Shown: positions 29,425 to 31,008 of the stretch, piece by piece
How positions within the stretch are numbered: the stretch's first letter is position 1
Layout of the letters: every line of letters starts with the position of its first letter
Assembly: GCA_030432035.1 (NCBI GenBank)
Contig: JAUIHO010000003.1
Coordinates: 1-53,343, forward strand
DNA length: 53,343 bases
Direction: 5' to 3'
From: Phycisphaerae bacterium
GTDB lineage: Bacteria; Planctomycetota; Phycisphaerae; UBA1845; UTPLA1
The notes under the pieces: generated by a model
What the model was told of the DNA's origin: nothing
What the model saw: only the letters and a program-made list of their open reading frames with translations
The model's database searches: none
Made by a program: the position numbers and the translations under genes

Positions 29425-31008
29425 CTAATCGTCGTCGTCGTCATCGTCTGCGGGCGGGGGGCCGACCGGCGTTTCGCGCCGCACTTCGACAATTTGGCCG
29501 CCGAACAAGTCGAGCGCGGCCCGCACCAACGGCTCTGCCTCGGCCGCACGAATATCGTCCATCGTGGTTCGCGGGGCGGATACCGTTCGCGCCGGTGTCT
29601 TTGTCGTTTGCGTACCTTGGTTTGCAGTCGCATCGCCGGTGCGACCAGCAGCGATTTGCCCGTTTGGCGCTCCCCCCGCGTTTCGCGTTGGGTTTGACGC
29701 CACCGGCGCACTCACAGCAGGCCCGCTCGTGGCCTCCGCCTTCGCCGGTTCGCGCCGCGATGCCGCGGGCGGGCTCGAACTTCTCGCTACGTCATTTGGT
29801 GGCGCGTTTTTTTTTGCGACGGGTGCACTGGCCGAGGGCGGAGGCGCGGCACTGCGGGCGGGGGCTGCGGTGCCGCCTTGTACCGAGGCGAGCAGGCTTT
29901 CAATCGATGAGAAGTTCGACGCTTCGGCCAACCGCACGACGGCGGCTTCGACCAAGGCGCGCCCGCTTCCCGATGATTTCACCGCCCGTCGCAGCTCTTC
30001 GAGCACTGTAATCATGTGAACCCAAGCACCGCCGTCGAACTTTTGAGCCTGTTCGAAAATCGTATCGCGCAGACCGGCAGGCACGTCGATCAACTCGGTC
30101 TCTTTTCCGCAGGTGCGCATGATCATCAGGTCGCGCACCTGGGCGATCATCAGGCTGCACCAGCGGTCGGGCGTCACGCCTTCGGAAAAGATGTCGTCAA
30201 TGACGCGCAGGGCGTCGGCGGGGTTGTTACTGGCGACCGCGTCGATCAACTCGGCGTTACGCTCGTCGTGGGCCGCGGGGAAGATGCTGTCGACCAACTC
30301 GCCGGTAATGCCCTTGTCGGAGAGCGACATGACCTGATCGAGCAGGCTCAGCGCGTCGCGCATCGAACCGTTGGCCAAGCGCGCCAAACGCTTGGCGGCG
30401 GCCTCGTCGATTTTGATCTTTTCGTCTTTGCAGATGCTGCGCAGTTGCTCGGCGATTTGCTCGGGGCGGATGCTCTTGAAATCAAACTGCTGCACGCGGC
30501 TGCGGATGGTTGCGGGCACCTTATGTGTTTCAGTGGTCGCGAATATAAACTTCACATGGCTGGGCGGTTCTTCCAGCGTCTTCAGTAGCGCGTTAAACGC
30601 GCCGGTGCTGAGCATGTGCACTTCGTCGATGATGTAAATCTTGAAACGCGAGCGTGTGGGGCGGTAGATTGCGTTGTTGCGCAGCTCGCGGATGTCGTCC
30701 ACGCCCGTGTTGCTGGCGGCGTCGATTTCGATCACGTCAACATCGTCGCCCTTGGAAACCGCCACGCAGGAATCGCACTCACCGCACGGTTTGACGGTCG
30801 GACCGTCGGACTGATGGCAGTTGAGCGCCTTGGCCAGAATGCGGGCCATGCTGGTCTTACCCACGCCGCGCGTGCCGCAAAACAGATAGCCATGGTGAAT
30901 GCGATCGTGCTCGATGGCGTTCCGCAGCGTTTGCGTAATGGCGTCCTGACCGACGACTTCGTCGAAATCGCGGCTGCGGTATTTGCGGGCAAGGACGGTG
31001 TAGGACAC
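29425..31008 (-). CDS. dnaX: DNA polymerase III subunits gamma/tau
   Basis: A 527-residue clamp-loader ATPase. Walker A is GTRGVGKT (45-52), the zinc site Cys64, Cys75, Cys78, Cys81, the Walker B IIDEVHML (Asp128, Glu129), and an SRC-like sensor in TIRSRVQQF. The collar domain follows to about 365, then an Ala/Pro/Ser-rich linker, a short conserved tail (PLVRAALDLFGGQIVEV) and an acidic end of seven Asp. The start is GTG at 31008. Codons 398-401 contain nine A in a row (29815-29807), after which the -1 and +1 frames both stop within ten codons. This predicts a tau form (527) and a gamma-like form (about 405). ybaB and recR follow; SRP RNA precedes. Confidence 0.96.
   Translation of the reverse strand: MSYTVLARKYRSRDFDEVVGQDAITQTLRNAIEHDRIHHGYLFCGTRGVGKTSMARILAKALNCHQSDGPTVKPCGECDSCVAVSKGDDVDVIEIDAASNTGVDDIRELRNNAIYRPTRSRFKIYIIDEVHMLSTGAFNALLKTLEEPPSHVKFIFATTETHKVPATIRSRVQQFDFKSIRPEQIAEQLRSICKDEKIKIDEAAAKRLARLANGSMRDALSLLDQVMSLSDKGITGELVDSIFPAAHDERNAELIDAVASNNPADALRVIDDIFSEGVTPDRWCSLMIAQVRDLMIMRTCGKETELIDVPAGLRDTIFEQAQKFDGGAWVHMITVLEELRRAVKSSGSGRALVEAAVVRLAEASNFSSIESLLASVQGGTAAPARSAAPPPSASAPVAKKNAPPNDVARSSSPPAASRREPAKAEATSGPAVSAPVASNPTRNAGGAPNGQIAAGRTGDATANQGTQTTKTPARTVSAPRTTMDDIRAAEAEPLVRAALDLFGGQIVEVRRETPVGPPPADDDDDDD
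29807..29815 (-). promoter_or_regulatory. A9 slippage site in dnaX
   Basis: The coding strand reads GCA AAA AAA AAC, nine A in a row. An extra A (or -1 shift) gives Lys-Arg-Ala-Thr-Lys then TGA (29794-29792). A lost A (or +1 shift) gives Thr-Arg-His-Gln-Met-Thr then TAG (29789-29787). Thermus dnaX is known to make gamma by transcriptional slippage at an A9 run, and E. coli by -1 ribosomal frameshifting at A6G. Confidence 0.7.

Follow-up and report, generated by a model that had tools for sequence, protein, structure and literature searches.

The window, by which we mean the whole 53,343-nucleotide stretch of DNA that was analysed, carries dnaX on its minus strand at positions 29425..31008. 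The open reading frame (ORF) encodes 527 aa from a GTG start and is followed downstream by a ybaB-like gene and recR. Its product matched the NCBIfam models PRK05563 (473 bits, cut-off 400) and TIGR02397 (444 bits, cut-off 250). The latter places the ATPase, lid, and collar at residues 3-360 (29929..31002, minus strand), and the Pfam domains DNA_pol3_delta2, DNAX_ATPase_lid, and DNA_pol3_gamma3 reach residue 371. On the 3' side of this point, which is the end of domain III, the coding strand contains nine consecutive A's (29807..29815, minus strand) across codons 398-401, read in frame as GTC GCA AAA AAA AAC GCG, where GCA is codon 398. Stops are near in both other frames. The TGA at 29792..29794 (minus strand) closes the -1 frame, which is entered with one extra A (A10), 8 codons past the run, and the TAG at 29787..29789 (minus strand) closes the frame of messages with one A fewer or two more (A8 or A11), 9 codons past it. 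Run and stops lie exactly where the first-pass annotation had put them when it reported an A9 run with stops in both other frames within ten codons. The tau frame itself is uninterrupted over its 527 codons and includes a conserved tail at about residues 480-511 (MDDIRAAE..LFGGQIVEVRRE; 29476..29571, minus strand), which aligns with relatives over residues 480-517 and has the host-order consensus DP..VR.A..LF.G.L..V. The stretch 3' of the run (29727..29806, minus strand) shows no stable hairpin of the ribosomal-frameshift kind, and Rfam gave no match in the run region.

Product sizes were obtained by mechanical translation of messages with 8-12 A's. The A9 message yields 527 aa and the A12 message 528 aa (56.5-56.6 kDa). 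The A10 message gives 405 aa (44.28 kDa, ending ...AKKKRATK), the A8 message 406 aa (44.45 kDa, ending ...AKKTRHQMT), and the A11 message 407 aa. The predicted sizes are thus 56.5 kDa for tau and 44.3-44.6 kDa for a gamma-like form, and the translations reproduce the roughly 405-residue, 44-kDa product with the ends KRATK or TRHQMT that had been expected beforehand. Judged from the domain architecture, the predicted gamma would retain the ATPase, lid, and collar and lose the conserved C-terminal tail; the domain positions (residues 3-360) bear out the earlier claim that ATPase and collar would be kept.

Conservation of the run and of its closed frames

A8 matched the 53-kb window three times against 2.7 expected, about as often as chance would give, so the window alone could not decide the matter and dnaX was gathered from the whole host order. 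We searched 113 genomes, and 98 dnaX genes were readable across the linker. A run of A9 or A10 was present at the same place, codons 379-434, right after the collar domain, in 69 of the 98 (53 of 75 genera), and the linker surrounding it is fast-evolving. The A-run lengths in the 98 ORFs numbered 17192, 3832, 562, 147, 57, 11, and 3 for lengths of one to seven, followed by none of eight, 13 of nine, and 56 of ten; no A11 or longer run and no T run longer than six was found in these ORFs. The codon phase of the run differs between lineages (0 or 2 for A9, 1 or 2 for A10), so that the encoded peptide changes (e.g. EKKK, AKKK, AKKN) though the run in the DNA stays.

Both genomes of the window's genus (G001 and G002) keep A9. 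All 25 members of one host-order family have the run, and it is present in 9 of the 17 members of the window's own family. It is absent from 29 of the 98 genes, and in these run-less relatives the nearby out-of-frame stops are gone too. According to the first-pass annotation, slippage would be refuted if close relatives had lost the run and yet kept the reading frame. On this check the slippage reading was supported: the same-genus genomes and the 69 genes retain A9 or A10. Eight of the 17 same-family genomes do lack the run although their frame is intact, so it is dispensable in places. In G002, dnaX falls into two overlapping reading frames (L013 and L111) that part at about residue 180-190. 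This break is within the ATPase domain, well away from the A run, and probably reflects a sequencing error in a one-contig genome.

For the 64 run genes with tau in frame, we next measured how many codons past the run each shifted frame first meets a stop, the +1 frame being entered by loss of one A or gain of two and the -1 frame by gain of one. The median was 5 codons in the +1 frame and 6 in the -1 frame, whereas at other places in the same linkers it was 32 and 25 codons, respectively. Both stops fell within 15 codons at 77% of the run sites, at 8% of the other linker places, and at 0% of the homologous stretches in run-less relatives. Reducing the data to a single value for each of 49 genera left both frames significant at p ~1e-9 each, although these p-values are indicative because related genera are not fully independent.

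The possibility that the run arose by chance was rejected. The window's 5.12-Mb genome contains 31 A9/T9 matches, or about 26 distinct runs, few others of which fall within a credible gene on the coding strand, and shuffled linkers gave 0.01 runs per 98 genes. A second coding-strand A9 was seen in the same genome (locus L203, contig C272, about 1673-1681) at residue 170 of 392 in an ORF resembling a PpiC/SurA-type lipoprotein. When the 64 genes were resampled synonymously with each gene's own codon usage, a run of A9 or longer survived in a mean of 2.8 of them, a result that speaks to codon choice only because the genes were picked for having the run; the absent A8 class and the fixed position of the run are free of this limitation. 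Conservation in relatives is the decisive point in these comparisons for regarding the run as real. The run and the closed frames are conserved jointly, under selection that the comparisons place at the level of the DNA.

Gains, losses, and other layouts of dnaX

When presence, absence, and reversal of the run are mapped on a dnaX core tree of the 98 host-order genes, 18 changes of state are required; counting well-supported branches only, the in-frame run must have been gained or lost at least 10 times. Five separate tips (G019, G044, G077, G101, and G106) are reversed, in that the zero frame stops 7-10 codons after an A10. The tail is found in the A11 frame in four of them (G019, G077, G101, and G106), and the G044 contig ends too early for the tail to be read. 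Of the 29 run-less genes, 26 were found to have a linker free of any -1 slippery heptamer that is closely followed by a stop; the exceptions are G067 (a G8 run) and G018 (A7). The species lacking such a heptamer probably make tau only, or make gamma by proteolysis as in Caulobacter (as cited in PMC5009743). The G8 of G067 lies just past the collar at codon 376, with shifted-frame stops 18 and 9 codons on, and is a possible G-run substitute.

Outside the host order, the layout was classed only where the tail was readable, because the tail profile built from the order failed in 61 phylum loci. A9 or A10 with near stops occurred in Gemmata sp. IIL30 (L042), a Schlesneria MAG (L044), Aporhodopirellula aestuarii (L078), and other planctomycetes, and also in one Spirochaetales MAG (L100). 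Within the phylum sample such sites were found in families f10, f13, f14, and f35, and most other families were without them. The recurrences in Gemmata, Schlesneria, Aporhodopirellula, and the others are independent, and they speak for the slippage reading set out below, as do the reversed genes at separate tips that have their tail in the A11 frame.

Several planctomycete genes have a different arrangement. In four Phycisphaerales loci (L034, L035, L036, and L041), codons 374-384 of dnaX contain A7 or A8, the zero-frame stop follows one codon later, and the tail is in the -1 frame. A hairpin was counted just after the stop in three of the four (z of -4.4, -3.8, -0.9, and -3.0, respectively). 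Unlike those of the window's group, these sites look ribosomal. In family f9, dnaX of three loci (L248, L249, and L251) ends ...GGA AAA GCC TGA, with G_GGA_AAA in L248 and a near variant in L251; a hairpin follows the stop (z -1.1 to -3.3) and the tail (HDHALVRRARELF) is in the -1 frame, so that the site is apparently ribosomal with tau as the shifted product. Six loci of family f21 (L258, L270, L278, L279, L291, and L323) have no A run. Their zero frame terminates once a gamma-sized protein has been encoded, a C_CCN codon lies a short way ahead of the stop, a strong GC hairpin comes right after the stop (z -3 to -7), and a tau-like tail is in the -1 frame, suggesting a possible -1 ribosomal shift at the proline codon. 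One fold of L279 (298-378), taken from the wrong strand, was left out of account. No significant hairpin was detected in three other f21 members (L300, L304, and L272). One locus, L268 of G169 (family f56), runs the other way from every other reversed case: its dnaX frame breaks off after a gamma-sized product and the tail carries on in the +1 frame. This layout could be a sequence error.

Probable slippage during transcription and its alternatives

The A9 run is very probably a programmed transcriptional slippage site of the kind in Thermus thermophilus dnaX, by which one gene would provide both tau and a gamma-like protein. RNA polymerase copying the run would insert or drop A's, so that the mRNAs differ in their number of A's. 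Those with 9 or 12 A's would then encode full-length tau (527-528 aa), and those with 8, 10, or 11 A's would reach a stop within 8-9 codons and encode the gamma-like protein (405-407 aa), which would keep the ATPase and collar and lose most of the linker and the conserved tail, a polymerase-binding region by analogy. We infer that slippage occurs, that transcription is the step concerned, and that both products enter the clamp loader.

The main evidence for a transcriptional mechanism, comparative rather than biochemical, is the double closure, which favours this step because A insertions and deletions reach both shifted frames and a -1 ribosomal shift reaches one. If ribosomes instead shifted by -1 at A_AAA_AAA or A_AAA_AAC in the run, gamma would be made from a uniform mRNA. 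Any A9 contains A_AAA_AAA, and both heptamers are in the right frame in the window; the A_AAA_AAG of E. coli is not among them, and was found in 27 of the 69 run genes. The apparently ribosomal dnaX sites of other planctomycetes (A7/A8 plus hairpin, GGGAAAA plus hairpin) lend this reading some weight, as does the tail frame of the readable reversed genes, one A forward, which a -1 ribosomal shift could reach as well. However, seven nucleotides would suffice for such a shift, yet 9 or 10 A's are kept and 8 were never found, a length that favours transcription, and the +1 frame, unreachable by a -1 shift, is shut as tightly as the -1 frame. The usual ribosomal stimulators were not enriched either. 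Folding of the 60-80 nt 3' of the window's run was no better than that of shuffles (z -0.01 to +1.28), and over 68 run genes the mean downstream fold z was +0.16, with 3% below -2. A Shine-Dalgarno-like motif preceded the run in 4 of these 68 genes against a background of 5.5%, and the window has no such stimulator upstream, as the first-pass annotation had noticed. In addition, the A-site codon of the last heptamer in the window is AAC, which is reported to shift far less readily in E. coli than AAG does (PMC5009743). We consider ribosomal shifting at the run unlikely, and closure of both frames together with run length gives comparative support to the earlier preference for transcriptional slippage. 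Both tRNA-Lys isoacceptors are encoded in the window's genome. The idea that they favour slippage was set aside as non-discriminating, because run-less and ribosomal-type genomes have both too and their presence is uninformative on mechanism.

Two further readings are far less probable still. The run might simply follow from a linker peptide that is rich in lysine, or from neutral drift, given that lysine stretches are common in linkers and that lysine codons make A runs. Outside the run, however, 72% of lysine codons are AAG, few runs survive the resampling and the shuffling described above, the run persists although the peptide differs from one codon phase to another, and the near out-of-frame stops come and go with the run. 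The peptide reading was rejected on the resampling, the phase changes, and the missing A8 class, and we give it and drift very little credence. It is similarly hard to credit that the run serves phase variation, as a hypermutable tract at which slippage in DNA replication turns tau on and off. Long runs do mutate readily, and tau is out of the zero frame in five genomes, but it is in frame in 64 of the 69 run genes, the readable reversed cases share one tail frame, the length is held at 9 or 10 over deep branches, and dnaX is expected to be essential. Transcriptional slippage at the run accordingly remains our preferred explanation.

Relation to known dnaX systems

E. coli dnaX uses a -1 programmed ribosomal frameshift at A_AAA_AAG with a Shine-Dalgarno sequence and a hairpin. 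The purpose there is the same, namely to obtain gamma from inside the tau gene. The window's gene differs in having neither hairpin nor Shine-Dalgarno sequence, a longer run, A_AAA_AAC as the last heptamer, and a +1 frame that is closed too.

In Thermus thermophilus, RNA polymerase slips at an A9 in dnaX, and the mixed mRNAs give about equal tau and gamma (Larsen et al. 2000, as reported in PMC1088944 and PMC5009743). The match to this mechanism proposed in the first-pass annotation is supported by what we found. As in the Thermus gene described in those accounts, there is an A9 in the coding strand after the collar, tau is encoded in one ORF, and near stops lie in both other frames; gamma is likewise predicted from slippage by other than multiples of three, and two tRNA-Lys isoacceptors are present (the argument made in PMC5009743). 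As far as those sources describe the Thermus case, the differences are that the window belongs to another phylum, that its run lies 75% of the way along the gene (codon 398 of 527) and not seven-eighths, that relatives have A10 as commonly as A9, that the run was repeatedly lost and reversed, and that slippage here is predicted from sequence. GeneTack has predicted two-ORF dnaX genes with poly-A in other groups (PMC3711429). The genes set out there have A7-A10 between a gamma ORF and a -1-frame tail, an arrangement they share with the reversed G019, G077, G101, and G106. Tau is in frame in the window's gene, however, and a program that looks for frameshifts passes over such a layout. In the literature searched, we came across no account of a dnaX slippage site from Planctomycetota. 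The mechanism itself is known from Thermus; for Planctomycetota, where we found no earlier report, the comparisons make a strong case for it with what appears to be unusual evolutionary mobility.

Thermus is the single experimental precedent we found in the literature for transcriptional slippage making gamma and tau. In another phylum, dozens of genera appear to keep the same design, clearly under selection; there it was repeatedly lost and reversed, and sister groups have apparently ribosomal versions. Ordinary genome annotation of such genes gives tau only, and the predicted second product is missed. There is perhaps an even chance that lineages of Planctomycetota have switched repeatedly among four states of one gene: transcriptional slippage at A9/A10 that yields gamma, the reversed form in which slippage yields tau, a -1 ribosomal shift that yields tau at A7, G_GGA_AAA, or a C_CCN site with a hairpin, and a gene whose second product is lost altogether. 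The phylum would then be a natural laboratory for dnaX recoding. With conserved, lost, reversed, and apparently ribosomal versions side by side, and with the site present in cultured relatives (Gemmata and Aporhodopirellula), these bacteria would let the role of gamma be tested directly, along with what decides between polymerase slippage and ribosome shifting.
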